DNA of 25,065 bases, taken from a virus. The stretch covers positions 1-25,065 of IMG/VR virus record IMGVR_UViG_3300033149_006669; one strand, 5' to 3'. The notes below the pieces were generated by a model, which worked only from the letters and a program-made list of their open reading frames with translations, was not told where the DNA came from and searched no databases. Positions 7,147-25,065 of this stretch are shown here, piece after piece (the first letter of the stretch is position 1; each line of letters begins with the position of its first letter). The translations under genes and the position numbers were made by a program.

Positions 7147-7178
7147 CTACTTTATTTCAAGTAGGAAAAAAAAGGGGA

Positions 7179-7737: not shown

Positions 7738-7989
7738 TTATAACGATAGAGCTATCTCGTTGATTTTCTGGATTACCGGATAGAGAATACTATGTTTTTC
7801 AAGAATTGCTTTCAGGGTTTCATATTCCTGTTTTTCTAACATAGAATACTCAACCCTACCTCTGTCAGGGTGGGAATGGTTCTTATGTCGGTTTATCTTC
7901 TTGACAGCTTCATCAAAATTTCGACCTAAAACGAAATGCCCACAGAACAGGCATTTCGCCATGAAGGGATTGCTATATTTTGTTCCCAT
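7738..7989 (-). CDS. C2H2-type small zinc-finger protein, 83 aa
   Basis: The product has CLFCGHFVLG at residues 13-22 and HKNHSH at 35-40: C-x2-C-x18-H-x2to4-H, a zinc finger with a long first loop, followed by a helical C-terminus (KQEYETLKAILEKH). Start ATG at 7987-7989; no SD is seen, and the leader contains AAGGTAATTGCCCTCAA, a sequence that recurs near 6746. Likely a DNA-binding regulator; target unknown. Confidence 0.65.
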   Translation of the reverse strand: MGTKYSNPFMAKCLFCGHFVLGRNFDEAVKKINRHKNHSHPDRGRVEYSMLEKQEYETLKAILEKHSILYPVIQKINEIALSL

Positions 7990-8105
7990 TTTTCGGCACC
8001 GTTTGAGGGCAATTACCTTTAGTCGATAGTAATCAGCGGTTCACCTTTTCTATGCGTTTAAAAATGAGCCAAAAAGCAGGATGGGTTTTACCTCTCAGGG
8101 AGGAT

Positions 8106-8222
8106 TTACCCTCTACGACCGAACCTATACTTTTTGACTCGATTGAGGTAAAGCCGAACCCTACGAATTCCCCTAAAGGATTCTTCAGGTTCAGCCTTTT
8201 TGACCTTAATCACGTTCCCCAT
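8106..8222 (-). CDS. Possible basic peptide, 38 aa
   Basis: ATG at 8220-8222 opens a 38-codon frame (MGNVIKVKKAEPEESFRG..., ending in arginines). A TATA-like TTTTTAAAG lies on the minus strand at about 8257-8265, some 39 bases upstream, with a TTAACA operator just behind it (8294-8311). That promoter supports transcription, but the frame is short and has no SD, so the transcript could instead serve the zinc-finger gene downstream. The rest of 7990-8510 holds the operators listed separately and nothing else I can identify. Confidence 0.35.
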   Translation of the reverse strand: MGNVIKVKKAEPEESFRGIRRVRLYLNRVKKYRFGRRG

Positions 8223-8293
8223 CGCGATGGAGACACGCAAGTAAATAAGTGGGACTTTAAAAACATATCACTAGGGATTTACACTGTCCTATT

Positions 8294-8381
8294 TTAACAT
8301 ATCTCTGTTAGAAATTTTTGATTAACATAGAATTGTTAAAATCAAGGTCTGGAATTGGAATTTTTAACATAAAAATGTTAA
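8294..8381. promoter_or_regulatory. Cluster of three 18-bp operators TTAACA-N6-TGTTAA
   Basis: Three palindromes share the form TTAACA-TA-N4-TGTTAA: 8294-8311 (last base G), 8322-8339 and 8364-8381. A fourth lies at 9495-9512. The three sit upstream of the minus-strand promoter near 8257-8265. Repeated half sites with a constant 6-bp spacer indicate one dimeric repressor or activator. The longer palindromes at 302-335 and 10289-10322 share the outer TTAACA...TGTTAA bases. Confidence 0.65.
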
Positions 8382-8510
8382 GAGCTTTAAAAGACCTAAT
8401 AATGGATTCTTGTATTTAAAGGATTGAAAAATTGATTTTTCCATGTAAAGTTTAGGTTTAGTTTTTTCTAAAAGATTCTTAAAAAAAAAGATTGAAAAAA
8501 AAGAAGGTTT

Positions 8511-8735
8511 TTATAAAAGGGTTTCTTTTACATTTCTGTTTCTATAGGGGCTCTGGTAAAAAGGACTTTTAAATAATTTATGATATTGGTGGTTAAGTCC
8601 CGTTTTTTCCATCATTTTTAATTCCTTAAATCGTAAACAACGTTTTAGTTGTTCCCGATTCAAGGAATACGCTAATGGACACTGTCTTGGATGAAAATAG
8701 AAACATCCTTTCCCATCTATAGGACAGATTTCCAT
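8511..8735 (-). CDS. Cys-rich small protein, 74 aa
   Basis: ATG 7 bases after AGAGGGG, 14 bp downstream of the KOW-protein gene, so the two form an operon. Cysteines 4, 11, 19 and 33 (CPIDGKGC...CPLAYSL...KRC) suggest one metal or iron-sulphur site; the tail is basic and rich in tyrosine and asparagine. Similar in style to the other CP-type mini-proteins in the window. Function unknown. Confidence 0.65.
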   Translation of the reverse strand: MEICPIDGKGCFYFHPRQCPLAYSLNREQLKRCLRFKELKMMEKTGLNHQYHKLFKSPFYQSPYRNRNVKETLL

Positions 8736-8749
8736 TTTTTTCCCCTCTA

Positions 8750-9436
8750 CTATAAAAGGGTTCGTTTTTTAACGTATTTTTCGCATAGCACTTTAAAATC
8801 AGGGGAACAAAACGTACAGGCCGAAATCCAATTAGCTTCTAAAACGGTTGCATAACAAACTCGCATTCGTCGTAAAAGTTCTTTATAGTCTGCTTCGTTC
8901 ATTTTTGAAAGTGAAACAGCGTTTTTTGGTTTTTTAGGTCTCTTTTCTGAGATATACGCTAAACGGATTGAAAAAACCTTGTCTTTATATTTCTCGAATT
9001 TTACTTTAGCCATTTTTCCAGAAATACTTAAGATTTTTCCCCTTGAGCCTTTAAAAATCCCTTTGTGAACATAAACCGTTTGACCAACGGTTTTATGTCC
9101 TTTAATTCGTTTAGCGTATTCTATAAATTCCTCCTTCTCGATAAGACCTAATATTTTAATTTTTCTTAGGTAGTCTGGTGTGACTCCGTCTTTAAACCGA
9201 AGGAGGAAATAGTTTTTAACGCCTCCTTCAACGAGAATCCCTTTTATCGTCGGATTTCCTGAAAGTTCCTGAATTCTGTGTAATTTTGGTTCTTTCGTTC
9301 TTGCTAAAACCCAATTTTCCGAAAAAACCCATTTAAGAGCTTTTTCTACGTATTGGGCCAAGAACAGAGCCTCTTTTGAGGAAAAAATCTCTGTCTGGGA
9401 TTTTTTCACGACTTGAAGGCTTTTTTGATTCACCAT
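8750..9436 (-). CDS. KOW-domain protein, possibly NusG/Spt5-like, 228 aa
   Basis: Residues about 117-153 (VGQTVYVHKGIFKGSRGKIL...VKFEKY) form a clear KOW motif, as in NusG/Spt5 elongation factors and some ribosomal proteins. The preceding region (FLLRFKDGVTPDYLRKIKILGLIEKEEF) sits where an NGN domain would, but I cannot recognise NGN with confidence. The C-terminus is basic, with C-x-x-C (CTFC) and further cysteines. If Spt5-like it would bind RNA polymerase and promote viral transcription. Start ATG at 9434-9436 with only a weak ribosome binding site (GAAGGTC); upstream are a TATA-like TTAAAT near 9471 and an operator at 9495-9512. The gene ends TAG TAG. Confidence 0.65.
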   Translation of the reverse strand: MVNQKSLQVVKKSQTEIFSSKEALFLAQYVEKALKWVFSENWVLARTKEPKLHRIQELSGNPTIKGILVEGGVKNYFLLRFKDGVTPDYLRKIKILGLIEKEEFIEYAKRIKGHKTVGQTVYVHKGIFKGSRGKILSISGKMAKVKFEKYKDKVFSIRLAYISEKRPKKPKNAVSLSKMNEADYKELLRRMRVCYATVLEANWISACTFCSPDFKVLCEKYVKKRTLL

Positions 9437-10389: not shown

Positions 10390-10635
10390 ACTGAACAATT
10401 GTATATCTTCAAAGTAATATGAAAGTAATTATTATGATATTATGCCGAACTTGAATTAAGACTAACACTATTTGTAAATCATAAGTTTTAGTTTAATCTT
10501 ATATCGCTAGAGAATGGGCGAATGAAGTTTTTTCTAGAACTAAAACTATACATCTGTGAGCTAAAAATAGGTGTTCGGATTTTTAGCTAACACTAACACT
10601 TCGTAATAATTACATAATACTTTAGTCTCATACCA

Positions 10636-11075
10636 AACTCAAAATTAAGTTTCATGTTTAACTTAATATTAAGTTTTATTCTAAGCTTAAAATTAAGTTT
10701 CATCTTAAGCTTAAAATTAAGATTCAGCTGAGGCTTAATATTGAGTTTCAGTTTAGAGTTAATATTAAGATTTATATCAGACTTAAAATTAAGATTCAAT
10801 TTAAACTTAATATTAAGATTTAATCTAAGCTTAATATTAAGTTTCAATTTAGAGTCAATATTAAGTTCCATATCAGACTTAAAATTAAGATTCAATTGAG
10901 GCTTAATATTAAGATTCATCTTTAACTTAAAATTAAGTTTCATGTTAAACTCAAAATTAAGTTTCATGTTAGACTAAAACTTTGAAACTTTAGCTTCAGT
11001 TTTTACTTAAAATTAAGATTTAATTGAGACTAAAAATTAAGTTTTATCTGAAACTGAAACTTCAGTTTTTTCTGA
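10636..11075. repeat. Array of 14+ tandem 24-bp repeats with internal palindrome
   Basis: From 10636 to 10971 fourteen units of exactly 24 bases run head to tail without spacers; each has a core CTTAAAATTAAG or CTTAATATTAAG (a few with one change, e.g. CTCAA), which is itself a palindrome. Degenerate units continue to about 11075. Because 24 is a multiple of 3, an open frame of 8-residue repeats (K-L-N-F-K-L...) appears on the minus strand, but its ATG is inside a repeat and has no ribosome binding site, so I treat it as non-coding. TCGCTAGAGA (about 10504) and TCGCTAGCGA (about 11104) flank the array. Likely roles are origin iterons or a partition (centromere-like) site. Confidence 0.75.
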
Positions 11076-11150
11076 AATTTTAGTTTTATGACAGAGTAAA
11101 AGATCGCTAGCGACATAGACTGCCACCGCGGAGCAAAATTCAAAAGCTAT

Positions 11151-11409: not shown

Positions 11410-11871
11410 GTGAAAATGGCTCGCCCATGTAGTGTATGCAATCACCCTGACGTCGCAGAGATAAACGACCATCTCATCAGGGGCGATATGACATACAGAG
11501 AACTCTCCGAGCAATACGGACTCTCTCAATATTCTCTGGGCAATCACAAACGCAAATGCATCAAGAAAGTCATAGATGGCATGCAAAAACAGGTCATCGA
11601 GAAGATCAAGGCTTCATATCTATCCACAATCGATGCCTGCAACCTCGTCATTAACAAACTCCCAGAGATGATAGAAACAGGAGATCCGACCTTCACGCAA
11701 GTCCTGGAATTCATGAAGCTTCGTTCCGAACTCCTTGGCGAAAAATTAGGTCCTCCGGAAATCAAGATAGTCTGGGGCGCAGGACTCGAAGAAGAGGAAG
11801 AGGAGATAACAAATAAGGAAGCAGACGGTGAGGAGATTGCAGCGGAAATCTCTGAAATCTCCGGTGGTTAA
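11410..11871 (+). CDS. Terminase small subunit-like protein (zinc/HTH)
   Basis: The N-terminus has CSVCNH (C7, C10, H11), a helix-turn-helix region (MTYRELSEQYGLSQYSLGNHK) and HKRKC (H46, C50), the layout of phage small-terminase-like DNA-binding proteins. A middle helical part follows (LEFMKLRSELLGEKLGPPEIKIVW), with an acidic tail (EEEEEEITNKEADGEE). Small subunits recognise viral DNA and load the large subunit. Start is GTG 11410 or ATG 11416; a TATA-like GTTTTTAAG near 11375 fits the GTG as leaderless. Its 3' end overlaps the terminase large subunit by 44 bases, as expected for partners. Confidence 0.75.
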   Translation: MKMARPCSVCNHPDVAEINDHLIRGDMTYRELSEQYGLSQYSLGNHKRKCIKKVIDGMQKQVIEKIKASYLSTIDACNLVINKLPEMIETGDPTFTQVLEFMKLRSELLGEKLGPPEIKIVWGAGLEEEEEEITNKEADGEEIAAEISEISGG

Positions 11872-13105
11872 GAAAACCCTTCGAATTAACTATTCTCCAC
11901 ACACAGGACAGAACTTAGTCCACAAATCAAAAGCACGATTTAAGGTTCTAGTTGCAGGAAGGAAATGGGGCAAGACAACTTGTGGTGTCATGGAGGCCTT
12001 TCATTATCTCGGAAAACCAAACTCCGTTGTCTGGTGGGTGGCTCCATATCAAAGTGTCGCTCTCGTGGGCTGGAGAAGATTCCTCGAACTCGTTCCACGC
12101 CTGATCATAAAAAGCATAGACAAGAAAAACAGCACCATAACCCTCATAAATAACTCAACGGCGACATTCAAAAGTGCTGATAATGTCAATGCCCTCGTAG
12201 GAGAAGGCATAGATCTCCTTATCCTAGACGAAGCGGCGCGAATCAGAGAGAACACATGGCTCGAGACCCTTAGACCAAATCTAGACGATCCACGACATTT
12301 CGGACGTGCTCTTTTAATCTCAACACCCATGTCTCATAACTGGTTCTACAGAGCATTCGAGCTTGGTTTGAAACGGAAAAATGGATGGGAATCTTGGTCT
12401 CATCCTTACCTGAACCTCAGTGGAGGATTTCCATCATGGCTCAACCCCCACTTCAAGCAGGAAAGCCTTCAAGATGCGAAACGACTCCCAGAAAAAATTT
12501 TTCTTCAGCAGTACGCCGCCAGGTTCCTCCAAGACCTCGGAGAAGTCTTTCACGATGTCATGTCGGCACGCCAGGGAGACTTAGAACCAGCCCTCCCAGA
12601 AGAAGAATACTTCGCTGGGATAGACTGGGGTCGCTCTGATTCATTTACTGTGGTCACGATCCTGAATTCTTCAGGACACCTCGTTGCCTTCGATCGTTTC
12701 AGGCGAATGGCATGGAAACGTCAAGTAGCGAGAGTTGCAAGACTCCTTCGAGAATATAATGCCAGAGCTCTATGCGACAACACAGGAATCGGTGACCCGA
12801 TTTTCGATATGCTCTACTCTCATTACTCCAACATCCGTCCCTTCAAGATCAACGTGGGAAACAAAGCCGATCTAATAGAAAATCTCGTTGTCATGATCGA
12901 ACGAAAAGATATCACTTATCCTGATATCCCAGAACTTCTGGAAGAACTTGCAGTCTTCGGGGCAAAACAGCACAGTACGGGAACTTTCAAATATTCCGCC
13001 CCCAAGGGATTCCACGATGATTTTGTCATCTCTCTTGCTCTAGCCGCCTGGCAAATCCGAAAAAGGTCTCATGAAGCCGGATTTGCCTTCTTCCCGGTTT
13101 TCTAA
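11828..13105 (+). CDS. terL: Terminase large subunit (packaging ATPase-nuclease)
   Basis: GTG start, 425 aa, the usual size. Walker A is VAGRKWGKTT (residues 42-51), Walker B is LILDEAA (131-137), and STP (165-167) fits the coupling motif. The C-terminal RNase H-fold nuclease has the expected acids: FAGIDWGRSD (D266), ALCDNTG (D317) and FHDDF (D397/D398). The enzyme pumps DNA into the prohead at the portal and cuts it. The preceding small-subunit gene overlaps by 44 bases. All key residues are present, so it should be functional. Confidence 0.95.
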   Translation: MRRLQRKSLKSPVVKKTLRINYSPHTGQNLVHKSKARFKVLVAGRKWGKTTCGVMEAFHYLGKPNSVVWWVAPYQSVALVGWRRFLELVPRLIIKSIDKKNSTITLINNSTATFKSADNVNALVGEGIDLLILDEAARIRENTWLETLRPNLDDPRHFGRALLISTPMSHNWFYRAFELGLKRKNGWESWSHPYLNLSGGFPSWLNPHFKQESLQDAKRLPEKIFLQQYAARFLQDLGEVFHDVMSARQGDLEPALPEEEYFAGIDWGRSDSFTVVTILNSSGHLVAFDRFRRMAWKRQVARVARLLREYNARALCDNTGIGDPIFDMLYSHYSNIRPFKINVGNKADLIENLVVMIERKDITYPDIPELLEELAVFGAKQHSTGTFKYSAPKGFHDDFVISLALAAWQIRKRSHEAGFAFFPVF

Positions 13106-13156: not shown

Positions 13157-13987
13157 ATGAGGATAATCAAAAAGGTTATCGAATACTCCTCCAGGAAAGA
13201 AGGAGTTTTCAAGCTTGTGCCGTTCGGAGATCTCCACTTTGGCCATCCGAACTGTGATGTTGATCTTATCGAGAGAACGAGAAATTATATTTTAGAAACA
13301 GAAAATTGTTTCTGGATAGGGATGGGAGATTATTGTGACGCGATTTCTCCGAAAGACAAGCGTTTCAATTTCCATTCAGTGAATCTCAAATACGCGACTC
13401 CCGATGTCCAGTACAGATGGGTACGTAGCTTATTCGATCCCATCAAGGATAAATGTATCGGGCTTTTAGATGGGAACCATGACCTTCTCCACTGGAAAGC
13501 ACATGCTCATAATTACGTAGACTCTCTCGCCTATGATCTAGGAGTTCCCTACTTAACAATCGATGCATATATTAGATTGGTCTTCAAGAGAAAAACCGAA
13601 GATTCATCCAGATCTAACTCTTTCAATATCTATGCTCATCATGGCTGGACTGCATCTCGAACTTCTGGAGGCAAGGTAAACCGAATAGAAGATTTGGCCT
13701 CTATCTTTCCAGGTCTCGAGCTCTATCTCATGGGCCACACTCATGCAAGAGGTGAGACCCCGCCAAAAACTCATCTCTTCGTAAACAAAAATCTTGATGT
13801 CGTAGACCATGAAATGCGATTTCTCTTCACGGGAGCATTTCTCAGGGCATATGTGGACGGACATGCAAGCTACATCGAGGAAAAAACATACAAACCACAA
13901 CCTCTCGGAACTTCGGTTGTCGAGATAGACGTAGAACCAGAAGGTTCTTCGAAACCTCCGAAGATTAAAATCTACCCACTTTCATGA
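13157..13987 (+). CDS. Calcineurin-like metallophosphoesterase
   Basis: All five blocks of the two-metal phosphoesterase fold are seen: GDLHFG (24-29), GDYCD (57-61), GNHD (106-109), HHG (161-163) and GHTH (193-196). Length 276 aa. The closest functional relatives of this fold act on DNA or nucleotides (Mre11/SbcD) or as general phosphatases; nothing here decides which. It has its own leaderless promoter and sits between terminase and portal, not a standard position for such an enzyme. Together with the ligase and 3'-phosphoesterase-like proteins downstream it suggests DNA-end processing in this module. Confidence 0.9.
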   Translation: MRIIKKVIEYSSRKEGVFKLVPFGDLHFGHPNCDVDLIERTRNYILETENCFWIGMGDYCDAISPKDKRFNFHSVNLKYATPDVQYRWVRSLFDPIKDKCIGLLDGNHDLLHWKAHAHNYVDSLAYDLGVPYLTIDAYIRLVFKRKTEDSSRSNSFNIYAHHGWTASRTSGGKVNRIEDLASIFPGLELYLMGHTHARGETPPKTHLFVNKNLDVVDHEMRFLFTGAFLRAYVDGHASYIEEKTYKPQPLGTSVVEIDVEPEGSSKPPKIKIYPLS

Positions 13988-14049: not shown

Positions 14050-15612
14050 ATGAGCGCTATAGATAAAATATTAAATAAAATAGGATTATTGCGAAAAACC
14101 TCTGTCATCCCAGAATATCACATGGAAAGCGAATCTAAAGTCAGAATCCCCGAATGGGATCTCAAAACTCTCTACGACGTTGCTTCCAGAAGCTGGGTTC
14201 TGCAGGAAATATATAGAGCGATTATACAGGAAGTGAAGCGTCCTGGATGGAACATCAAACCAAAATTCACTTTAAAATGCGAAGACTGTGGCATGGAATA
14301 TCAGACCAACTTAAAAAGATGTGAGGTATGTGGTTCGAAAAACCTTCGTCCTCCAGATTTAGTTCAGAAAAAACGCGCCTTATCTCTCCTCGAGAAACCA
14401 AATTCCAATCGCGAATCTTTCGGTGATATCATAGGCTCTATCGTTTATCACGATCTAGTTGCAGATGACTGGTATCTCTCCATAGAATTTGCGAGAGCCA
14501 AGATAGGCTCAGATGAACTATTCTTACCGAAAGAAATACGAGTTCAAAATCCAGCATTCATTTTCCCCATAATGGATGAGTTCGGTCATCTCGGGAAATC
14601 AGATGAATGGTTCTGTCCATTTTGTTTCCACTACTCCAAAAACCCTCAAATTTTTTCCAGGCCTGGGGTCTGTCCTTCATGTGGAGGCGAACTTCAAGAA
14701 ACAGCCTACGTCCAACGGGTAAACAATGAAATCACAAGCCGTTGGAGCGTCAAACAAATGGTTCATGGATCCACCTACAGAGTTCTTCCAAGTGTTTTTG
14801 GTTCTCCCAGGGCAAAATCCCTCTGGGATATAATCCATATTCTCTTCGCAATGGATGAATGGTTCTATGATACATTTAGAGAAGCACGTCTTGAGAAAAT
14901 GGTTATCTTTGAGGGTTATACTCAAGATAAAATCACTGAATTAATAAGAAAAGTTCAATCTGAAATTGGGACTCTTCGAACGATGGATGCGCGAACTGGA
15001 AGACTCAGAACGAAAAAGAATCTCAGAACTATCTATCTTGGAATGGATGCGAAAGCTCAAGTGATTGATATCGGTATCTCCCCAGAAAAAATACAGCTTC
15101 TTGATTATTACAAACAGGCAATTACTGCGGCCTGTGGAGTTTATGGAGTTCAGCCCATCTCAATCGCCTTTGTGGAAAAAGGCAAAGCTGGAACCACACC
15201 CGCCATGCAAATCGAAGTTCAGAACAGAACCATCAGAGAAATTCAACGCGACAAAGAAGAAATCTTCAATCAACAGCTCTTTCCGATCTTCGGAATCAGG
15301 GATTGGGTTTTTAAATTCAATTCTCTCGAGAAACGGGATATCGTGAGAGAAACAGAAGTTCTTCAAGGAAGAGCCAATGCTGCAATGACCCTTCTCAATG
15401 CTGGATTCGATGTCTGGTTCGATGAATTCGGAGAGCTACACTGGTCATCTCGTCCTGTTCGTCCGCCTCTTTCATTAAGGCCAACCGGAGCTCTCCCTGC
15501 AAAGCACAAGATAAGTGGAGCAACGGGAAGAGAGATCCAGGGAACAACGACGGAAAGACAGCCCTTCGGACCGAGGCCAGCAACCCAGCAAGACGAGGAG
15601 AGAGAAAAATGA
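14050..15612 (+). CDS. Portal protein with two zinc ribbons
   Basis: 520 aa. The core pattern of tailed-virus portals is present: VLQEIYRAIIQEVKRPGW near the start, FAMDEWFYDTFREARLEKM in the middle, and CGVYGVQPISIAFVEKGK followed by IREIQRDKEEIFNQQLFPIFG in the stem and wing part. The portal forms the dodecameric DNA gate at one capsid vertex. Unusually there are two four-cysteine clusters, C77/C80/C91/C94 and C189/C192/C208/C211, that look like zinc ribbons added to the wing or crown side. The tail is charged and proline/glutamine-rich. It shares an ATGA overlap with the next small gene. Confidence 0.88.
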   Translation: MSAIDKILNKIGLLRKTSVIPEYHMESESKVRIPEWDLKTLYDVASRSWVLQEIYRAIIQEVKRPGWNIKPKFTLKCEDCGMEYQTNLKRCEVCGSKNLRPPDLVQKKRALSLLEKPNSNRESFGDIIGSIVYHDLVADDWYLSIEFARAKIGSDELFLPKEIRVQNPAFIFPIMDEFGHLGKSDEWFCPFCFHYSKNPQIFSRPGVCPSCGGELQETAYVQRVNNEITSRWSVKQMVHGSTYRVLPSVFGSPRAKSLWDIIHILFAMDEWFYDTFREARLEKMVIFEGYTQDKITELIRKVQSEIGTLRTMDARTGRLRTKKNLRTIYLGMDAKAQVIDIGISPEKIQLLDYYKQAITAACGVYGVQPISIAFVEKGKAGTTPAMQIEVQNRTIREIQRDKEEIFNQQLFPIFGIRDWVFKFNSLEKRDIVRETEVLQGRANAAMTLLNAGFDVWFDEFGELHWSSRPVRPPLSLRPTGALPAKHKISGATGREIQGTTTERQPFGPRPATQQDEEREK

Positions 15613-15749
15613 GACCAAGATTTTCCTGGAAGAACGGCGAACTCAGACTAATTCTACCTGGCCCCAAACACTCCAAATGGATAAGGATTTTGGAATCAGG
15701 GGAGGAGAGAAAGGAGGATGGACGAAAATATAGAAGACAGACTTTCTAA
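15609..15749 (+). CDS. Possible small basic protein, 46 aa
   Basis: ATG overlaps the portal stop (ATGA), so translation would be coupled, and the frame overlaps the next gene by 32 bases. The product (MRPRFSWKNGELRLILPGPK...) is basic with a short beta hairpin followed by a charged tail. No family recognised. It may equally be a chance frame filling the portal-to-fusion-protein gap. Confidence 0.4.
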   Translation: MRPRFSWKNGELRLILPGPKHSKWIRILESGEERKEDGRKYRRQTF

Positions 15750-18700
15750 AATTCGAAATCCAAAAACATATGATCCAACTAAAATCTCAAATGAAGTTCT
15801 TGCAGACGACTGGAGGATCGTAAACAGCTGGTTCGCAATCCTACGAGACAAGAATAAAGACATCAAATACTCCGAAGAAGAGATAATCTCCTTAGCCCGC
15901 AAGATCTATCGCGAAATTCTTCGAAGGGTAAAAGCAGGTAAAATGAAGCACGAATTCAAACCCGAAAAAATGAAGCCAACCTCAAAAGAGTTATTCGAAA
16001 TTGTAAGAAAAACCGATACCATGGGGATTTACTTAAAAGAACCTCATGCCGATTGGATTCGTCTTGGTCTCAAGAATCTTATTGTTCAGACCGAAGATTT
16101 CTCTGATCTACTCAACAAACCTCTTACTCTCTTGGGACCAAGAGCATATGGAACGATCACACTCACTTCAATGGAAAAAATCTCACTTTCCGCTTTCAAG
16201 TCCCTACGGGATAAACACAGAATCAGTGAAACCGAGCGACAAGACTGGGGGAGTAAAGATTCTAGATGGCTGAAAGGACCATTTTATGCTTATAAATTCA
16301 AATTCAAGCCATTCCCCCGGGAAAAAGAATATGAAAAACCAAAGAAACTCAAAACCTTCATAAAGAACGTAATAATCAAATCAGAGAGAACTCATGAAAA
16401 CTGCATGAATTTCTTACCTGATCCGAATAATCCAGATTTTGGATTCTGTCGTCTTCATAAGAAGAGAGTTCCGGCTTCCGGAGATGCTTGTCCTTCATTC
16501 ATTCCTAAAATTACCAAGACAGAAACACCCTTCATTAAATTCTATGGCACAAGAGGGATGGTCAAGGAAAAATCTCCCGAGCATCTTTACCATTCAAGCT
16601 TGCTTCTTGATTCGGGTAAGACCAGAGTCTTGATAGACTGGGGTGAAATTCATCCAGAAAACATTCCGGAAAGACTTGATGCAGTAATAATTACTCACGC
16701 TCACCCCGATCACTTCTTCGGTCTTAAAGGTCGCGAAGTACCCAACCTCTTTATAACCGATGCAACCCTCGAATCCCCATATTTCAAAAAAGAAGATTTT
16801 GATCTGAGCCGAGTCCACATCTTCAAAAGAAGATCAAGTTTCTCAATCGGAGATATCTCATTTGTCTCGGTTCCAGTTCTTCATTCCTCTCTTGCTCCTA
16901 ACATCGCTCTCTTTATCACAATGAATGGAAAGCGGATATGTTATGCTAGCGATATCTTGAATATGATGTCGAACCACAGAGATCGATTTCTTCAAGACTG
17001 TGATTTATACATCGGAGATCTCTCAACCCTAGAACCACATTCCATTACCAGATGGAGCTCGAAATACAAAGAACCAATTGGGCATGCGAGTCCAAAACTT
17101 CAAATGAAATGGGCATCTTCCCACTCCGTGAAGCAAATCATTTTCACTCACCTGGGATCCGCGTCTATCTCAAACCCAGAACTTCTCGAGGAAAGAATTC
17201 TTTCTTTCAGTAAGGAGCTCGGTCTATCTCGTCCAATCATAGCAACTGACAATTTAGAAATAAATCTTTCTTCCCTGACAAAAACCAGACCAAATCATCA
17301 ATTTCCAGATTTAGAACGAATAGACGAAAACTACGTGAAAAATCTTTCCGATAAAACCCTTATAGCTCTCGATAAATTCCTCCATGAAAAATACAAGGAA
17401 CTCGGTAAAATCAGCGAACCACTCCTTAATGCCCACATAGAAACATGGAAGGAGATGGATCTGAGAAACCTGCCTCATAAGATCGAAGATCCGCTAACCC
17501 AGGAAACTCGATTCTGGATCATAGAATATCCCGCTCCAAAATCTCTCCTCACGCTAGAAGAAGTCATCGAGGCTTTCCCAGACAAACTTTCTCTTCCAGT
17601 TTCAAATCTTTCGATCTATCTCGTGGGTGGGACTGTAAATCGAGGTTGGACAATCTTCAACCACGACATCGACGTTCTAATTTCAAATTCTAGAAGAATT
17701 CCAGAAGTCGAACGAGAAATAATATCTAAGATCAAGCGAAACGATGTAAGAGAAAAAATCTCCTTCATCTGGGACGAGACCGGCGGGATAGGATGGTCGA
17801 TACTCCTTTACGATGGAAATGGTATCAAGAAATCCGGTCTTCAGCTTTTCCGTCCAATACAACCCACGAAACCAGGCAAACAATTCTTCTCGACAGAGAA
17901 ATTATACAAGGAATGGGTGGCCTCAAGACTAAATCCTGGTATCATGATCCAACCCAAAGCAGATGGAATGAGTTTCATGATCCACATCTCTCCAAACAGA
18001 ATTGCTGCCTATACTGAAGATAAAAAACGAGATCGGATTCAAGCCTTCAAGAAAAGCGAGGAGGACTTTTCAAGAATCAAGGCCAGAAATGGAATCTTTG
18101 TTGCCGAGATGGTAGAATATTCCAATAAAATATTATCTGAAAACGAAACAAAGATATTCAAGAAATTCGAGCAGAAGCCCCGTGAGGAACTTGTCAAGTG
18201 GATCACAGAAAAACCAGAAACTCTGGATGATTCAAGGGTCGTATTCAATTTCCATGATATCCTCTTCCTTAATGATAAACCAGTTTACGACTTACCTTAT
18301 AGAAAACGCTATTATCTCTTGAAGAAAGTAGTTCCTGAGACCAAGCATATGCATGTGATAGATAGCTGGGAAGTAAGTTCAAAAGCTGGATTTGAGGATG
18401 CTCTAGACAAGGCAAGATCGTATCCGAATAGCGAGGGAGCCGTTCTCAAATCATTCAATTTCAAATACAAAATCTCACCATCTCAAGTCCAGAGATCTAA
18501 TGAGGTTGCCAAGATTAAAAACCTCAAAGATATTAACGTAATGGTCTTCGATCCACATCCAGTTTCTGGTTCTCCAGGAAACTTCAATTATACTGCATAC
18601 ATAGGACCGCTTACACCGAAACAACTAAAAGAGGGCTGGAGAAAAGAGGATCTTCGAAAATGGAAAGGTAAAACTTATCTAAGGATAGGAACAACTTACA

Positions 18701-19128
18701 ACGTAAAAGCGAAACTCCCGGCGGGGGCTATTCTCGAAGTCCATCCAATACGAATCCGAGAATACGAGATAAATGGAGTAAGAAGCATTACATGGATGTT
18801 TCCAAGAGTTGGTTCTCCGCGACCAGATAAACATGAACCAGACGATCTCGCCTACGTCAGAAGACTGGTAAAACTTGGAACGGCACCACTCCAAAAATCA
18901 TCGATCTTCATTTCCCTTCAACCTTGCCCTTACTGGGACAACAGCGAGATCTGTCCACTCTACGATAAAATAAAAATCGTGACAGAAGAAAATGGAAAGA
19001 GGGTCATCAAAGCGAAAGAGATTTATGTCGAGGAACTTAAATATCCAGTGAAGGTGTGTCCATTGGCCTCTCATTATAAATGCCAGAGAATAAAGGATTA
19101 TTACTACACTTTCAGGAGAGTGAAATAA
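15718..19128 (+). CDS. MBL-fold hydrolase / nucleotidyltransferase / ATP-dependent ligase fusion, 1136 aa
   Basis: ATG follows two purine-rich ribosome binding sites (GGGGAGG, AAAGGAGG). Domains in order: a helical N-terminus (1-95); a PUA/ASCH-like region (about 98-215: LIVQTEDF, LLGPRAYGTI, DKHRISETERQDWG); a three-cysteine patch (C229, C244, C258); a metallo-beta-lactamase domain (about 270-500) with HAHPDH (327-332), H389, D412 and H478; a nucleotidyltransferase domain with GG (637-638) and DxD (D650, D652); an ATP-dependent ligase core with KADG (747-750), E797 (motif III), EG...K (E906, K911) and KIK (932-934), then an OB-like region; and a C-terminal four-cysteine tail (1070, 1079, 1114, 1122). 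All main catalytic residues appear intact. Such enzymes could trim, extend and seal nucleic-acid ends. Substrate (DNA or RNA) is unknown. Confidence 0.82.
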   Translation: MDENIEDRLSKIRNPKTYDPTKISNEVLADDWRIVNSWFAILRDKNKDIKYSEEEIISLARKIYREILRRVKAGKMKHEFKPEKMKPTSKELFEIVRKTDTMGIYLKEPHADWIRLGLKNLIVQTEDFSDLLNKPLTLLGPRAYGTITLTSMEKISLSAFKSLRDKHRISETERQDWGSKDSRWLKGPFYAYKFKFKPFPREKEYEKPKKLKTFIKNVIIKSERTHENCMNFLPDPNNPDFGFCRLHKKRVPASGDACPSFIPKITKTETPFIKFYGTRGMVKEKSPEHLYHSSLLLDSGKTRVLIDWGEIHPENIPERLDAVIITHAHPDHFFGLKGREVPNLFITDATLESPYFKKEDFDLSRVHIFKRRSSFSIGDISFVSVPVLHSSLAPNIALFITMNGKRICYASDILNMMSNHRDRFLQDCDLYIGDLSTLEPHSITRWSSKYKEPIGHASPKLQMKWASSHSVKQIIFTHLGSASISNPELLEERILSFSKELGLSRPIIATDNLEINLSSLTKTRPNHQFPDLERIDENYVKNLSDKTLIALDKFLHEKYKELGKISEPLLNAHIETWKEMDLRNLPHKIEDPLTQETRFWIIEYPAPKSLLTLEEVIEAFPDKLSLPVSNLSIYLVGGTVNRGWTIFNHDIDVLISNSRRIPEVEREIISKIKRNDVREKISFIWDETGGIGWSILLYDGNGIKKSGLQLFRPIQPTKPGKQFFSTEKLYKEWVASRLNPGIMIQPKADGMSFMIHISPNRIAAYTEDKKRDRIQAFKKSEEDFSRIKARNGIFVAEMVEYSNKILSENETKIFKKFEQKPREELVKWITEKPETLDDSRVVFNFHDILFLNDKPVYDLPYRKRYYLLKKVVPETKHMHVIDSWEVSSKAGFEDALDKARSYPNSEGAVLKSFNFKYKISPSQVQRSNEVAKIKNLKDINVMVFDPHPVSGSPGNFNYTAYIGPLTPKQLKEGWRKEDLRKWKGKTYLRIGTTYNVKAKLPAGAILEVHPIRIREYEINGVRSITWMFPRVGSPRPDKHEPDDLAYVRRLVKLGTAPLQKSSIFISLQPCPYWDNSEICPLYDKIKIVTEENGKRVIKAKEIYVEELKYPVKVCPLASHYKCQRIKDYYYTFRRVK

Positions 19129-21032
19129 TGTCAGGAGCAATAAATTTCATCGATATGATCTGCCCTTCATGTGAAGAAGAATTGCAAAAACAGAGTAAAT
19201 TACATCGATTTATGGAACTTCCTCCACCAGGGAAAAATGGAAAAGAACCATTCGTTCTACAACATCATTTTCGCGGAGAGGGAAGCGTGCACTGGGATTT
19301 CAGATTCAAAGTAAACTCTCATTTAAATGGAATCACAATTCTGGATAACCCAAAGATCGAAAAATTCCCAACATCGAAAGCAGAAGCCGATGAGATCGCC
19401 AGAACGGCAGACTTTAAGTTCAAACCTGTACCAGGTATGGAAGGTAAGAAATGCAGAGCCGAGCTGAAGGCATCTCAACCTTTGGAATGGTTAAAAATTC
19501 AGGGTAAGGTTCCTCCTGGTCGTGTTGGTGCAACTGCTCATAAGCCAGGGTTTTTCAATATCATAGATCGTGGAACCATCACGTTCGGAGCTCAAAAACC
19601 CTATTTTCATGAATATTTCCTTCATGGATCAAAATTCAAAAACCTAAGAGTGATATTAAGAGCCATTCGTCTACCACGTCTGGATCCAGAAACCAAGGAG
19701 CCAATTCAGGGCAAATATGATCTTGTCTGGTCTATCTGGATCCCCAAAGATCAAGACCCATATGCCGTGAGCAAACGAGCTCAAAAAGAGAATTGGTTTC
19801 CACCCAAGAATTTCATACCCATACCAGATTACTGGATTTCTAAGAACAAAGAAAAATTCGAGGAGTGGTTAAAGAGAGCAAAGGCTCATTGGTCTGGAAC
19901 CAAGAAACTGCTCAAAGCTCTAGCTTATTACACGCTTCATGAACACAAATGGATCAGATTGGGGAGAACTGGCGAACCAGTTGGTTCCAGAAAACTTCCT
20001 CAGCGCGAATGGTTCCTCCATTTACAGATTGATGGTAAACCCAGAACCTGGCGGCTTGAGTTCAATCCTCTTTGGGCTTATCCACTCGCGGCATCTTATG
20101 AGGGCAGAACCAACAAGCGATGGATGGATTTCGAGGGAACTCTTGAACCTGGCGAAGCATGGAATCCGAACAAAAAACTAAAATCGAGAATGGTAATTCT
20201 CGCAAAGGGAAGAGTAGAGGTCGATGCATCCAGAGAATCAAATCGTGAGATTCTCAAACTTTCATTTAAATCTGGAACCATGAAAGGAACATGGATTCTC
20301 TCTCAGGAAGAACGAGGATCTGAAATATATAAACTTGATAAAGTGTTTCTCCACAAGGCAAGAACTCAATTCGTACTACAGAAACATACGTGGGCCGGAG
20401 GTCACCACTTCGACATTAGAGTCGATAAGGATTCTTTCCTCGATGAATGGTCTATTCCATCTGACCCACTTAAATTATTCAGGGAAGTTGAGGTGAACAG
20501 AAAACAAATAAAAGACAGAAGCTGGTTAACCACAGAAGGCAAGAAGAAGATCGATGGGGTTATGACGGAAATCAAAATCCTGGATTCTGGTGATGTTGAT
20601 ATTATCAATGACTCTCCATTCTTCGTCTCGATGAGATTCTATGGTAAGAAACTCAAAGGACTTTATCATCTGATCCAGCGAAACAAGAAATGGTTCTTTG
20701 GTCCATCAGAACTCCCCCGAACTCAAAAAGCAATCAAGATAGAAGAAAAACCTTCTAGAATAATCGTCCATCTTCACGACATAAGATTCTTCTCGAGTTG
20801 TGAGCCAGAATCAAAGAATAAACGGTATTCAGTTCCTGAGCCACCCCCAGGAGCAAAACTGAGAATCTGTGCATATCCAAGACCCGACAGGATTCATGGT
20901 GTTATGATACAATCAATCATATTTCCCAAGCCCAAGTTCTCTCTCAAACAAGTTCAGAACATGAACTTTGAGAAATTCATGAATTGGCATGGAACTCAGA
21001 AAAGAGGAAAATCGGAATCGGAGGAAATATAA
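19128..21032 (+). CDS. Protein with three tandem LigD 3'-phosphoesterase-like modules, 634 aa
   Basis: The ATG at 19128 overlaps the upstream stop (TAATG) and follows AGGAGAG; an in-frame ATG at 19080 would lie inside the previous gene. Module 1 (about 40-190) has FVLQHHFRGEGSVHWDFRF with the H-x-D pair H55/D57, then PPG-x-x-GATA and HEYFLHG. Module 2 (about 290-400) has WFLHLQIDG, lacks the H-x-D pair and looks degenerate. Module 3 (about 413-540) has FVLQKH...GGHHFDIRVD with H427/D429, then DEWSIPSDP. In bacterial LigD this domain removes 3'-phosphates and ribonucleotides from DNA ends. The neighbour carries the ligase, as LigD does in one chain. A CPSC pair is near the N-terminus. Confidence 0.8.
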   Translation: MSGAINFIDMICPSCEEELQKQSKLHRFMELPPPGKNGKEPFVLQHHFRGEGSVHWDFRFKVNSHLNGITILDNPKIEKFPTSKAEADEIARTADFKFKPVPGMEGKKCRAELKASQPLEWLKIQGKVPPGRVGATAHKPGFFNIIDRGTITFGAQKPYFHEYFLHGSKFKNLRVILRAIRLPRLDPETKEPIQGKYDLVWSIWIPKDQDPYAVSKRAQKENWFPPKNFIPIPDYWISKNKEKFEEWLKRAKAHWSGTKKLLKALAYYTLHEHKWIRLGRTGEPVGSRKLPQREWFLHLQIDGKPRTWRLEFNPLWAYPLAASYEGRTNKRWMDFEGTLEPGEAWNPNKKLKSRMVILAKGRVEVDASRESNREILKLSFKSGTMKGTWILSQEERGSEIYKLDKVFLHKARTQFVLQKHTWAGGHHFDIRVDKDSFLDEWSIPSDPLKLFREVEVNRKQIKDRSWLTTEGKKKIDGVMTEIKILDSGDVDIINDSPFFVSMRFYGKKLKGLYHLIQRNKKWFFGPSELPRTQKAIKIEEKPSRIIVHLHDIRFFSSCEPESKNKRYSVPEPPPGAKLRICAYPRPDRIHGVMIQSIIFPKPKFSLKQVQNMNFEKFMNWHGTQKRGKSESEEI

Positions 21033-21068
21033 ATGAGCATGATAATAATAAAAAGAGTGCGAGAGTGA
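21033..21068 (+). CDS. 11-codon leader frame coupled to protease gene
   Basis: GGAGG lies 8 bases before ATG 21033, which directly follows the upstream stop. The frame (MSMIIIKRVRE) ends in TGATG, where the protease ATG begins. The best ribosome binding site thus serves the leader, and the protease may be reached by re-initiation. Alternatively this is the remnant of a former N-terminus. Confidence 0.35.
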   Translation: MSMIIIKRVRE

Positions 21069-22372
21069 TGTCCGAATCCATCATTCAGAACTTCATAGGG
21101 ATAGAAGTTCCAGGAGTATTCAGCCACAGAGATACTCTTTTAAAATCTAAATCGGATCGGTTTATAATAGCTGGATATGCCTCATATGATGTTATCGACA
21201 AAGAAGGAGATCGAGTTCCTCTCCCCGTCTTGGCTGAAGCATTTGAGAGAATGATGAAAATTCCAGAACGACGAAATCTCAATTTCTATCATACAAATAT
21301 CCAGATAGGAAGAATTCTTCCAGAATGGAAAAGTCCATCTGGAAAAGTCTTCAGGTCTGGAGTCGACGATCATGGACTCTTCATAGTAGCCGAGCTCTTT
21401 GATGATGTCGAGCAGGCCAGAAAAGTTCGAAGACAGATGAAACGAGGAAATTATCTTGCCTTCTCCATAGGAGGTCAGGCATTAAAACGAAAATTAATAT
21501 GTGACGATGATGTCTGCTGGAAGGAAATCTCAAAACTAGATCTTCATGAAATAACTTCATGTCCACGAGGAGTCAATCAAGCTTCTAAAGCAGTAATACT
21601 CAGAAAGGATATTGAATCTTTTAAGAATGTAGCAAAAATGGCTGGAAAAAACGATAGTTTTATAAATGTTCTTGCAAAAGAGGATTCTGAGGAAAAAATC
21701 ATGTCTGACGAAAATGTAGACGTGAGCACAGAGAAAAGCGACCTACAAGTTGTCCTAGAGAAAATAGATAGTGGAAATACTGCAATGTTAGAAGCACTAA
21801 ATTCCATCGTTGAGAAGCTAAGTCCGAAGGAAGAGGATTCTGAACCCAAACCTGAACCCCTCACCAAGGAGTCAATTAAGGCTCTCTTCGATGAGTGGTT
21901 TGCAGAAAAGGCGAAGAAAAAGCCCGAGGAAGAGGAAGAGGAAGAGGAAGAAAAAAAGCCAGAGGAACCTGAAAAGGCTCAGAAAAAGATCGGTCCGCGG
22001 ACTGATTTGGAAAGGGTTATGGCGCATTTTGGGGTCTCCGAGGCAGCAGCGCGAAAACTTATTGCAGAAGTTCCTCTCAAGGAATTATTGCCTCCGCGGG
22101 GATCTGCTGATAAGCCTGATCAGTACTACTACTACAAGAAACCTCAGAAGGCTGACTTCGAATCCGATGAGGAATTCCAGAAGGCTCTTACTGCCTACAA
22201 TAAATTCAAGGAAGAGTTCCTAGAAGATCTAAAGGCTGATCTTGGCGAGGTAATCTCCAAGAGTCCCGTACCAAAGACCGAAGTTGAACCAGTTAACTTC
22301 GACGAGCTGTATAAGAAGGCAGAAGAGCTGGATATCGATGAACTCCTTGAAGAGGAGGGTGTTGTGCTTTGA
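21068..22372 (+). CDS. XkdF-like prohead serine protease fused to acidic scaffold
   Basis: The start at 21068 gives 434 aa. The protease part (1-180) has GYASYDVIDKEGDRVP, the catalytic-type histidine in FYHTNIQIGRI (H75), the serine in AFSIGG (S133) and DLHEITSCPRGVNQASKA, the pattern of the XkdF/S78-like capsid maturation proteases. The rest (about 200-434) is acidic and coiled-coil-like, with a run of glutamates and lysines (EEEEEEEEKKPEE), and is probably the scaffold that the protease removes during maturation. An in-frame ATG at 20984 overlaps the upstream gene and is less likely. The gene abuts the major capsid gene, as in many tailed viruses. Confidence 0.85.
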   Translation: MSESIIQNFIGIEVPGVFSHRDTLLKSKSDRFIIAGYASYDVIDKEGDRVPLPVLAEAFERMMKIPERRNLNFYHTNIQIGRILPEWKSPSGKVFRSGVDDHGLFIVAELFDDVEQARKVRRQMKRGNYLAFSIGGQALKRKLICDDDVCWKEISKLDLHEITSCPRGVNQASKAVILRKDIESFKNVAKMAGKNDSFINVLAKEDSEEKIMSDENVDVSTEKSDLQVVLEKIDSGNTAMLEALNSIVEKLSPKEEDSEPKPEPLTKESIKALFDEWFAEKAKKKPEEEEEEEEEKKPEEPEKAQKKIGPRTDLERVMAHFGVSEAAARKLIAEVPLKELLPPRGSADKPDQYYYYKKPQKADFESDEEFQKALTAYNKFKEEFLEDLKADLGEVISKSPVPKTEVEPVNFDELYKKAEELDIDELLEEEGVVL

Positions 22373-23652
22373 TCAAGCGATTGAAGTGGGGTAAGAAGTT
22401 CCTCAACTGGTGGTATTTCCAGGGCGGGATGCATGATACAATCTACGGCAGAGATAGCATAACCGGAAACCCGGTTACATCCGAAAGGATTGCAAAGGCC
22501 ATAGGTCCATGGGATGCTCCCACATCTCCATACGCATACTACTTCGAGCCCAAGTTCTCCGCAGTGGTCCAGTCCTACGTGGACCGTGCTTCAGAAGTAT
22601 TCAAGCTTCTGCCGAGAACGACCTTCCTCGCAGAAGGCGATTCCCTCAAGTACTTCGAAAGTGATCTGGCTGGACTCACTGGTGTCACTCATACCTCAAC
22701 TCCATTCTCTTCTGGATCTGCTGAATCTGCTCCGACGATAGCAACTCTTGAGGAATTCGAGCCTGCTTATGTCGTGGATCCCTGGGAGACCAGTCTTCTA
22801 TCCAGAACTCGGGCCACATGGCAGAACGATCCCAAGCTAGACCCTGCGTGGATTAAGCAATATCACGCACAGAATCTTCCAAACCAGCTCGATAAGATGC
22901 TGACGAAGACCGTTGACACCGTTGCGAACGATGGTTCTTCGGCATTTAATATCGAGTCCATTGACAGAATCTGTAGCGGATCTTCGGAGGCATCGACCAC
23001 TTATGTAAGCGATGCTACTGATCCAGATATCTACTGGGGAAAGAGCTCCGCTCTCATAGATAGATCTGCAGACTCCGATGACACTTTCGGCTGTGGTGCG
23101 GGGGATGGCCTAGATCTTCCAGATACTAATGCTGCACGAATCCTCGATCTTGGAATGATCGACGATGTTGTTGCGGCAGTCATGCCTTACTCCAGACGGA
23201 AGCGATACATCGCAATAACGGGTCCCAAGACTCTTCTGGAGATGCAGAAACTCATAGATCCCAAGCAGAGATTCCTTGAAACCAGAATGGATTATCAGCT
23301 AACACTGAATGGTGTCTCCACGAGGAAGGGCGTTGAGACCGGATTCTCAGTTGGAGCTTATGTATCCAACGGAATTACGATTCCCTTCTTCCCAAGCCGT
23401 CATGTAGCAAACGAAACCTCAAGCAATAGAAGTGCGACGATTACGGATGCCGACATCGGAAACATATACATTCTTGACCTCGACGCGATAGAGCTTCGAT
23501 TTGCGATCCCAGTTACTTACCTGGAGACTCCTCCGCCTGCAATGCTTACCGGCGATGTCATGAAGACTCGTCATATGTTCCTGCTTGCGGCTCAGCTCAT
23601 TGCTACGAACTTCCGTGCTCACGCTTCAGTAAAGTACCTAAAAAGTACTTGA
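22369..23652 (+). CDS. Major capsid protein (HK97-fold candidate), 427 aa
   Basis: TTG start overlaps the protease stop (TTGA), with GGAGG 11 bases upstream; ATG at 22429 (MHDTIYGRDSITGNPVTSE) is an alternative that would remove a basic, tryptophan-containing leader. The assignment rests on position right after the protease-scaffold, on length, on balanced composition with few lysines in the core, and on features such as a long N-terminal arm and LTGDVMKTRHMFLLAAQLIATNFRAH near the end. I see no diagnostic motif; structure prediction would decide. This gene is richer in GC and in G/C-ending codons than its neighbours, consistent with high expression. Confidence 0.75.
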   Translation: MIKRLKWGKKFLNWWYFQGGMHDTIYGRDSITGNPVTSERIAKAIGPWDAPTSPYAYYFEPKFSAVVQSYVDRASEVFKLLPRTTFLAEGDSLKYFESDLAGLTGVTHTSTPFSSGSAESAPTIATLEEFEPAYVVDPWETSLLSRTRATWQNDPKLDPAWIKQYHAQNLPNQLDKMLTKTVDTVANDGSSAFNIESIDRICSGSSEASTTYVSDATDPDIYWGKSSALIDRSADSDDTFGCGAGDGLDLPDTNAARILDLGMIDDVVAAVMPYSRRKRYIAITGPKTLLEMQKLIDPKQRFLETRMDYQLTLNGVSTRKGVETGFSVGAYVSNGITIPFFPSRHVANETSSNRSATITDADIGNIYILDLDAIELRFAIPVTYLETPPPAMLTGDVMKTRHMFLLAAQLIATNFRAHASVKYLKST

Positions 23653-23657
23653 CCTTT

Positions 23658-24230
23658 CTAACGGTTAGTGCTAATATCCCCTATTTTTTTCACTCGCAAG
23701 AGATACCAGATAGCTTGTTTGGTAACTCCGAATCGTTTTGCAATCTGGTTCAATGATTCAGTCTTTGCTAGTTTAACTATTTCTGGCCAATCTTCTTGTT
23801 TAATTTTATAAGGTAATCGTCCACCGCGTTTACCTATATAACCGCGAATTTTTAACCGGCTCATTCTCTTTCTGATTGCTTCTACATCCAGAGTAGAATC
23901 TTCTAAGGCGCTGATCATTAGTTCAACTTGCGTCTTCTTACGTCCACGCATATAGGACAAGAGCATTTTGAGCAATCGATGAGTTTCAGCCCTTCGGTTT
24001 ACATAGATTGCTTCCTGCGGGTACTTTCGATTTGTAAAGCGGTATCTGCGATAAGGGATTCCAAGTCGTTTTAGTATTTGCTCAACTTCATCCAAGTTTT
24101 GAATATCTTTAACGCTCTGACTAATCGAAACTCGATACTGAAAGTTTTTTCCAATTTTTTGGATTTGAAAATTACCATCACCCTCAAGAAGGCCTGCCAG
24201 CCACGCGAGGTCAATCTCTCTGGAGCTCAT
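23658..24230 (-). CDS. LAGLIDADG homing endonuclease, 190 aa
   Basis: The motif LAGLLEGDG is at residues 11-19, the single-motif form that works as a homodimer. Further features typical of the family are YRVSISQS, a stretch binding DNA (RRYRFTNRKYPQEAI), and a C-terminal helix-turn-helix (SLNQIAKRFGVTKQAIWYLL). It lies 5 bp after the capsid gene on the opposite strand, free-standing, not inside an intron that I can see. A TATA-like TTTAAGTA about 28 bases before its ATG indicates its own leaderless promoter. It is a selfish mobile gene that probably targets this locus in related viruses. Confidence 0.88.
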   Translation of the reverse strand: MSSREIDLAWLAGLLEGDGNFQIQKIGKNFQYRVSISQSVKDIQNLDEVEQILKRLGIPYRRYRFTNRKYPQEAIYVNRRAETHRLLKMLLSYMRGRKKTQVELMISALEDSTLDVEAIRKRMSRLKIRGYIGKRGGRLPYKIKQEDWPEIVKLAKTESLNQIAKRFGVTKQAIWYLLRVKKIGDISTNR

Positions 24231-24346: not shown

Positions 24347-24757
24347 ATGGTCCTTACCCAGACTGAGACCATAACTCGTGGATATAGACCCAAACCATGG
24401 ATCTATGAAGCCACTGGAATAGAGACCTCCCTTTCTGATTCTTATTCTGAGATCTTAAATGTCGATCTGGAAGAATGGCCCCTTACTAAACTGATTGTGA
24501 TTACAAATACCCACACTTCAAATAAATTAGTTTATTCTATCTTTGGCACCGTAGTTGGTTCTCCCTCCAGTTCTGACTGGATAACATTGGTTGGTACTAA
24601 TGGAGTAACAAAGGAGATCACATTGGATGGTTCGACTTCAGATTATCAGACGACTGATTTACCATGGCGTAGATTAAAAGTCGAGTGCAAAAATGAGACT
24701 GCTGGGTCGAATGCCAGTGTGAAAATAATAATTCGGAGTGCGATAGAATCCAGATGA
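24347..24757 (+). CDS. Beta-rich virion-associated hypothetical protein, 136 aa
   Basis: Beta-rich, with many Thr/Ser residues and few charges (TKLIVITNTHTSNKLVYSIFG; DWITLVGTNGVTKEITLDGS; ASVKIIIRS). This resembles small virion or tail proteins of tailed viruses but no family is recognised. It follows the capsid gene, and its stop overlaps the next start (ATGA). Possible roles: head decoration, head-tail connector or fibre component. Confidence 0.7.
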   Translation: MVLTQTETITRGYRPKPWIYEATGIETSLSDSYSEILNVDLEEWPLTKLIVITNTHTSNKLVYSIFGTVVGSPSSSDWITLVGTNGVTKEITLDGSTSDYQTTDLPWRRLKVECKNETAGSNASVKIIIRSAIESR

Positions 24758-25065
24758 GTATAGATAAACAACCCTTTGTCATCGATCCATTAGCAGGTGC
24801 TGCGACTTATATAGGTTCGAGTATAGATAAACAACCCTTTGTCATCGATCCATTAGCAGGTGCTGCGACTTATATAGGTTCTATTCATCATCAAGTTCAT
24901 GCCGGATATCATTTTACATGTACTGATATAGACTTGGATGTTGACGAAGCCGCACCAAAGGAATGGTTGATAGTGACTCCTAGTCTTCCAATTAGAATTC
25001 ATTTTACGAGCGTCATAATAGTAAGTGTTTCTGGAGAACTCTATATGTTCGAAGGCACTCAAGTC
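24754..25065 (+). CDS. Probable capsid decoration/virion protein, 3' end outside window
   Basis: ATG overlaps the previous stop. Of 104 visible codons, the first 43 contain a perfect 21-residue duplication (SIDKQPFVIDPLAGAATYIGS twice). The following IHHQVHAGYHFTCTD...WLIVTPSLPIRIHFTS resembles, from memory, a widespread uncharacterised virion protein family whose members have an HHEIHxGxHF-like segment and a TPDT-like strand. It is beta-rich, and a structural protein is likely. The C-terminus is missing. Confidence 0.65.
   Translation, partial: MSIDKQPFVIDPLAGAATYIGSSIDKQPFVIDPLAGAATYIGSIHHQVHAGYHFTCTDIDLDVDEAAPKEWLIVTPSLPIRIHFTSVIIVSVSGELYMFEGTQV
24756..24881 (+). repeat. Perfect 63-bp tandem duplication
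   Basis: 24756-24818 and 24819-24881 are identical and in frame, duplicating 21 residues at the start of the last gene. Identity at every base implies a recent event or an assembly artefact. Confidence 0.9.

Follow-up and report, generated by a model that had tools for sequence, protein, structure and literature searches.

A ligase, nucleotidyltransferase and 3'-phosphoesterase-like gene module beside the head genes of a probable archaeal tailed virus

Two multidomain genes between portal and head protease

The viral record IMGVR_UViG_3300033149_006669 of IMG/VR was analysed over 25,065 bases (the window, meaning the whole of this stretch), the right half of which carries rightward late genes. 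Among these are two adjacent open reading frames, ORF A and ORF B, which together encode an ASCH domain, a metallo-beta-lactamase (MBL) fold hydrolase, a nucleotidyltransferase (NTase), an ATP-dependent DNA ligase and three modules resembling the 3'-phosphoesterase (PE) of LigD. An earlier reading made from the sequence alone (the sequence-only reading) had noticed these genes and proposed a viral repair or genome-end kit acting at packaging, on ejected DNA or on host RNA. Its observation is confirmed here and its interpretation is partly supported. Both neighbours were identified by library matches, which bears out the placement between the portal and the head maturation protease. The claim that each gene starts with an overlap or in tight coupling holds for ORF A and ORF B, where the TAA stop at 19126-19128 and the next ATG share one base (TAATG) with GGAGA upstream, but not for the portal and ORF A, which lie about 105 nt apart, or for ORF B and the probable protease start at 21068, about 35 nt away. 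Because of the overlap and its GGAGA, and because the alignment of relatives to ORF B begins at about 19128, the start of ORF B is likely at 19128 and not at 19080.

The MBL, NTase and ligase signatures had been read from a single chain, and Pfam, profiles and motif conservation agree on all three. A single-sequence phmmer search of ORF A against the PDB returned weak MBL matches only, and the domain calls needed profiles and models. The MBL domain matches Pfam Lactamase_B_2 (E 6e-15, above the cut-off) and carries HxHxDH with the downstream His, Asp and His, metal residues that are conserved among relatives. The ligase matches DNA_ligase_A_M (E 5e-14, likewise above the cut-off) and has motifs I, III, IIIa, IV and V and the OB domain of an ATP-dependent DNA ligase; across 35 relatives K747 and E797 are each kept in 34, D847 in 33, and E906-G907 and K932 in all. 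Both the ligase and NTase folds mattered to the sequence-only reading. The ligase fold is confirmed by an AlphaFold model of the NTase and ligase part (mean predicted local distance difference test score, pLDDT, 86), whose first structure matches are archaeal DNA ligases (E 3e-20), and the NTase is supported at the profile level. Towards its N-terminus ORF A also has an ASCH domain, which adds to the domains previously listed.

Assignment of the NTase to the Pol-beta superfamily is supported by its motif and by profile comparisons. Of the GG..DID motif, all 35 aligned relatives have G637 and D650, and 34 have D652. Single Pfam matches are weak (NTP_transf_2 was matched by 6 of 57 members, with E 1e-4 at best). 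When the NTase profile was compared with the PDB, terminal deoxynucleotidyl transferase (TdT) and Pol mu came first in a weak match (E 0.02) confined to about 44 positions in the palm motif region, and all matches to E 5 belonged by name to the Pol-beta superfamily. Comparison with cellular archaeal NTases by hhalign gave a probability of 77%, whereas column-shuffled controls and unrelated families stayed at or below 1.7%. The eight cellular sequences had been selected among Pfam hits for carrying G[SG]..DxD, a choice biased towards the motif, and this test is therefore supportive and not independent.

The three modules of ORF B are PE domains by fold and family, as the sequence-only reading had suggested from their likeness to LigD. 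In profile comparisons with a small set of archaeal PE proteins that stand alone, each gave a separate match at E 1e-5 to 1e-14 (hhalign probability 96-98%), and the best PDB sequence match of ORF B is an archaeal LigD-type PE, 3p4h. Pfam LigD_N was found on residues 434-532 (E 3e-6) at 27.6 bits, slightly under the curated cut-off of 31.1. The AlphaFold model made for ORF B matched seven PDB entries at E <= 0.001, all of them structures of LigD or archaeal PE, and a viral structure library gave two matches only, both weak; the relative placement of domains in this model is uncertain (mean pLDDT 82, predicted template-modelling score, pTM, 0.43). The alignments for the structure models were built without the row of ANMV-1, a virus described below. 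The residues that bind metal in LigD (His42, His48, Asp50 and Arg52) are kept in modules 1 and 3 and lost in module 2. Module 1 has Q or E at the position of LigD His84 and W at that of Tyr88, together with an extra invariant motif, QKP..HEYF. PE activity of modules 1 and 3 is plausible, and module 2 and the ASCH domain are likely nucleic-acid-binding parts. ASCH domains, being PUA-like, are of a kind that often binds RNA.

Table 1. Features of the late region of the window
Feature	Position	Strand	Remarks
Terminase large subunit (TerL)	11828..13105	+	library matches; context gene
Metallophosphoesterase, PHROG 'DNA repair exonuclease'	13157..13987	+	between TerL and portal
Portal protein	14050..15612	+	library matches; context, upstream of ORF A
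ORF A, multidomain ASCH-MBL-NTase-ligase	15718..19128	+	1136 aa
N-terminal helical region ('DDWRI'), putative domain without assigned function	15748..16017	+	conserved in 40 non-redundant loci
ASCH (PUA-like) domain	16015..16380	+	profile from relatives matches PDB TTHA0113, E 2e-7; Pfam ASCH in 9/39 members
Metallo-beta-lactamase fold hydrolase	16555..17352	+	HAHPDH / H / D / H intact
Short helical linker domain preceding NTase	17353..17544	+	
Pol-beta superfamily nucleotidyltransferase-like domain	17518..17922	+	GGTVNRG..HDIDVLI
ATP-dependent DNA ligase catalytic core and OB domain	17899..18807	+	motif I K747, III E797, IV E906, V K932/K934
C-terminal tail with several Cys, without assigned function	18808..19125	+	present in 28 non-redundant loci
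ORF B, three PE-like modules	19128..21032	+	634 aa from preferred ATG at 19128; 650 aa from 19080
PE-like module 1	19209..19775	+	H63, H71, D73 in 21/21 relatives, R75 in 20/21
PE-like module 2	19926..20345	+	profile match to the same family; without the metal site
PE-like module 3	20358..20708	+	H436, H443, D445, R447 in 16/16; no LigD His84/Tyr88 equivalents
C-terminal extension of ORF B	20709..21029	+	conserved in part of family
Prohead (head maturation) protease, Peptidase_S78	20984..22372	+	context; probable start 21068
Major capsid protein	22369..23652	+	context, downstream of protease

Conservation and carriers of the module

Loci were collected with ORF B and its alignment and their domains were mapped locally, which gave 72 non-redundant viral loci with a PE part (L numbers below). 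A ligase is present in 69 of them, an NTase in 60, ASCH in 39 and MBL in 25, and the domain order differs between loci; the profiles of the three PE modules are related and cross-match, so separate counts of these modules are not independent. A one-off chimeric assembly, which would have spoken against the sequence-only reading, was rejected, as about 70 related contigs carry the module and many viruses share the synteny. The ratio of nonsynonymous to synonymous substitution (dN/dS) of the module domains runs from 0.02 to about 0.2 in pairs with usable dS, dS being saturated for many other pairs, and is 0.02-0.07 for L038 against L037. Chance is excluded because the module is conserved in about 70 divergent contigs and is under strong purifying selection in the pairs with unsaturated dS.

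The same data make it very improbable that the domains are catalytically dead remnants serving as structural head proteins. Such decay would fit the lost metal site of module 2 and the absence of the LigD His84/Tyr88 pair from all three modules, but the ligase, MBL and NTase motifs are near-invariant, the dN/dS of L038 against L037 is low, and inteins are inserted at active-site motifs of the ligase, in L010 ahead of motif I and in L003 and L025 ahead of motif V. Inteins inside a gene are usual for essential enzymes, and those at the ligase motifs were counted in favour of a functional ligase. An intein in the ligase gene was also seen in L015, and the long ORF B forms of L003, L015, L019 and L025 are probably intein-bearing.

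Among 50,697 phage records the sole match to the non-protease part was ANMV-1 (L034, KP703175), the virus of an uncultured seep archaeon, and a query that contained the protease matched 229. The gene order in ANMV-1 is portal, NTase-ligase-PE, and then a 1168-aa neighbour (5862-9365) whose C-terminus resembles head-morphogenesis proteins; the gene at 1907-3190, annotated as a MutT-like hydrolase, is the portal (E 2e-30). Two archaeal metagenome-assembled genome (MAG) contigs from Guaymas, titled Archaeoglobales and Thermoprotei, also carry the module, and one of them may be a binned virus, as its length and match are those of the IMG/VR contig L007. Because ANMV-1 and these contigs carry the module, an archaeal host is likely for the tailed virus of the window. 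The ORF B profile matched 57 of 393 and 53 of 398 archaeal genomes. This tally was rejected as a count of the viral module, since it consists mostly of short matches to module 2 or 3, with long matches in few genomes only; these short matches seem to be to cellular PE proteins that stand alone.

In most of the larger relatives the ligase of the module is the only one detected. Two relatives, G800 and G801, have a second, stand-alone ligase elsewhere in the genome, which argues against the late-operon ligase being merely a replication ligase. Pfam scans of the window and relatives found only the DNA-ligase family, with no match to an RNA-ligase family, kinase or 2H domain, and none to a LigD-type primase-polymerase (AEP). 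In L077 (5366-11398) the module lies within a 2011-aa chain that also holds a D12 DNA adenine methylase.

These results bear on the idea, already present in the sequence-only reading, that the target is RNA. In such a polyvalent counter-defence or RNA repair system, the substrates of the MBL, NTase and PE domains would be host RNA, damaged tRNA or nucleotide signals, and RNA would be resealed by the ligase. The MBL profile does match RNase Z, PhnP and the anti-Pycsar protein Apyc1, the ASCH domain is of a kind that often binds RNA, and the D12 methylase shares the giant chain of L077. Jumbo phages, moreover, have RNA ligases with Pol-beta NTases (RlaP) (PMC7824862). Nevertheless, RNA repair is less likely than action on DNA because the ligase is of a DNA family, with an OB domain and archaeal DNA ligases as its nearest structures; the scans found none of the RNA-ligase, kinase or 2H families, and the LigD-type PE is a DNA end-repair family. 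We therefore regard this alternative as rather unlikely.

Linkage to head genes and a possible role in the particle

TerL or the portal is found upstream on the same strand in 33 of the 72 loci. The head protease is adjacent in 20 loci, where it begins -45 to +132 nt from the module, and is fused to the chain in six. L058 combines an XkdF protease (Pfam E 8e-33) and a ligase (E 7e-17) in one 1143-aa chain, L071, L079 and L032 likewise have Pfam XkdF at the C-terminus of ligase-bearing chains, and in L045 it ends a chain with NTase and PE parts. ASCH is fused to the portal in L027 and L029. When neighbours were compared with PHROGs, many of the nearest upstream genes were portal or minor head genes and many of the nearest downstream genes were head maturation proteases. 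The module thus has the setting by which polyvalent proteins are recognised, in that its genes lie among portal, MuF or protease genes or are fused to them.

The end-joining parts list, the operon position and the fusions to protease and portal suggest genome-healing proteins that are packaged and ejected. We propose, with belief and doubt about equally balanced, that the module is a late-made, head-associated machine for healing and sealing DNA ends, which travels with the genome and repairs or circularises incoming DNA. Both genes would be expressed late and their products built into the head with the portal and head protease, to enter the host together with the genome. There, the MBL domain and PE modules 1 and 3, all metal-dependent, would trim or clean 3' ends that are damaged or blocked, the NTase would add or fill one or a few nucleotides, and the adenylylating ligase would seal nicks or join ends, so that the incoming linear genome might be repaired, circularised or both before host nucleases destroy it. 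We infer the packaging, the ejection, DNA ends as the substrate and the order of these steps. The proposal is supported by the conserved ligase and MBL motifs and the PE metal sites of modules 1 and 3, by the co-occurrence of ligase and PE in 69 of 72 loci, and by the head protease fused or adjacent to the chain with TerL or portal upstream. A DNA target is favoured over tRNA repair because the ligase is of a DNA family and relatives fuse the chain to head proteins. There is precedent in ejected polyvalent proteins encoded near portal and head genes (PMC5512222), in the African swine fever virus (ASFV) core, which packages Pol X and a ligase (PMC12172490), and in the mycobacteriophages Omega and Corndog, whose Ku works with the LigD of the host (Pitcher et al. 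2006, as cited in PMC7719229).

Several observations weigh against this proposal. LigD His84 and Tyr88 are required for PE catalysis in Pseudomonas aeruginosa (PMC8656161), and both are replaced in all three viral modules. The NTase has no more than the size of a palm and no Pol X thumb was detected in it, and no Ku was found in ten records including the two archaeal MAGs, several of which may be fragments. In about half of the loci, mainly in a large-genome group (L003, L007, L012, L014, L021 and L036), the neighbouring genes were not recognised as head genes.

The module might instead repair replicating or concatemeric viral DNA inside the cell before packaging, stay out of the particle, and owe its place in the late operon to timing only. 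That its ligase is the sole one detected in most larger relatives would allow a general role in repair or replication, and packaging is so far a proposal. Against this, the protease and ASCH-portal fusions tie the chain physically to the prohead, and the two relatives with another ligase keep this one too; we consider purely intracellular repair unlikely, if worth keeping in mind. Action at the packaging stage itself, by healing the genome ends that terminase has cut or sealing nicks as DNA fills the head, seems improbable. It would suit a chain placed by TerL, portal and protease and fused to the protease, but there is no obvious need for a ligase in a filling head, and ends cut by terminase are normally left as cut.

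A broader form of the proposal, which we hold tentatively and with more doubt than confidence, is that many archaeal tailed viruses carry a Ku-independent, self-contained machine of Pol-beta-type NTase, ligase, triple PE and MBL nuclease, built into the head as a polyprotein that the protease processes, and ejected with the genome. It would be the first virion-borne DNA end joining in prokaryotic viruses.

Other features of the window were also noted. The metallophosphoesterase gene at 13157-13987 was seen besides only in L004 and L041 and is no constant partner of the module. A free-standing LAGLIDADG homing endonuclease gene (23658-24230, -) follows the capsid gene immediately but is read from the other strand, and a KOW-motif protein similar to the Spt5 KOW region is encoded at 8750-9436 (-). 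A 24-bp tandem repeat array (10635-10979 and 11005-11077) between the leftward genes and the rightward late genes may serve in replication or packaging, and a perfect 63-bp tandem duplication is found at 24756-24881. Scans of the window for sigma-70 promoters and terminators gave no excess over shuffled sequence, and tRNA and Rfam scans of the window gave no match.

Comparison with known systems

The sequence-only reading knew of no described system with this composition, and we found none in the searchable literature, whose coverage leaves out most subscription papers. The composition is new to that literature; multidomain proteins linked to the head are a known theme, and this cargo is of a new kind within it. 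How linear genomes of archaeal tailed viruses are protected after entry and closed is poorly known, and archaea have been believed to have few polyvalent proteins; a ligase-NTase-PE module that is conserved and fused to the head protease offers a concrete candidate. The module would also be a natural analogue of LigD made from different parts, useful for understanding end joining without Ku.

The closest relative with a name is the ANMV-1 ATP-dependent DNA ligase (KP703175, AJP62006), an NTase-ligase-PE-PE chain just behind the portal. In contrast to the window, it is a single fused gene with no MBL or ASCH in that chain, and its record names the ligase only and leaves the NTase and PE parts unnamed. 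The polyvalent proteins of phages are similarly large chains of many domains, with genes next to those for portal, MuF and head proteins, and are thought to be ejected with DNA, but a search of the text that describes them (Iyer et al. 2017, PMC5512222) found no LigD and no ligase-PE cargo; that text reports Pol-beta NTases only in proteins of conjugative elements and polyvalent proteins as scarce in archaea. A head protease linked to a DNA enzyme is also known from Lactococcus and Pseudomonas phages (records H7-H32), where an XkdF-like protease lies within genes annotated as DNA methyltransferase; there a methylase takes the place of NTase, PE and ligase.

The base-excision repair proteins of ASFV (Pol X, ligase and AP endonuclease; PMC12172490) likewise bring a Pol-beta family enzyme and an ATP ligase, packaged for incoming DNA. 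They are, however, separate proteins of a eukaryotic virus with no PE or MBL, and the likeness is one of analogy only, packaging being our proposal for the present virus. Omega and Corndog, on the account of Pitcher et al. (2006) cited in PMC7719229, circularise their genomes by end joining, as we propose here; they bring Ku and use host LigD, whereas the present virus, for which no Ku was found, brings ligase and PE. Bacterial LigD and archaeal non-homologous end joining likewise combine an ATP-dependent ligase, a nucleotide-adding domain and PE-fold domains, and the viral PE modules are homologous to the archaeal stand-alone PE. The viral nucleotide-adding domain is of Pol-beta type, whereas that of LigD is a primase-polymerase; the viral set has three PE copies that lack His84 and Tyr88, has MBL and ASCH in addition, comes without Ku in the ten records, and is encoded among head genes in a late operon. 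The comparison suggests that the viral module works like LigD but is not LigD.

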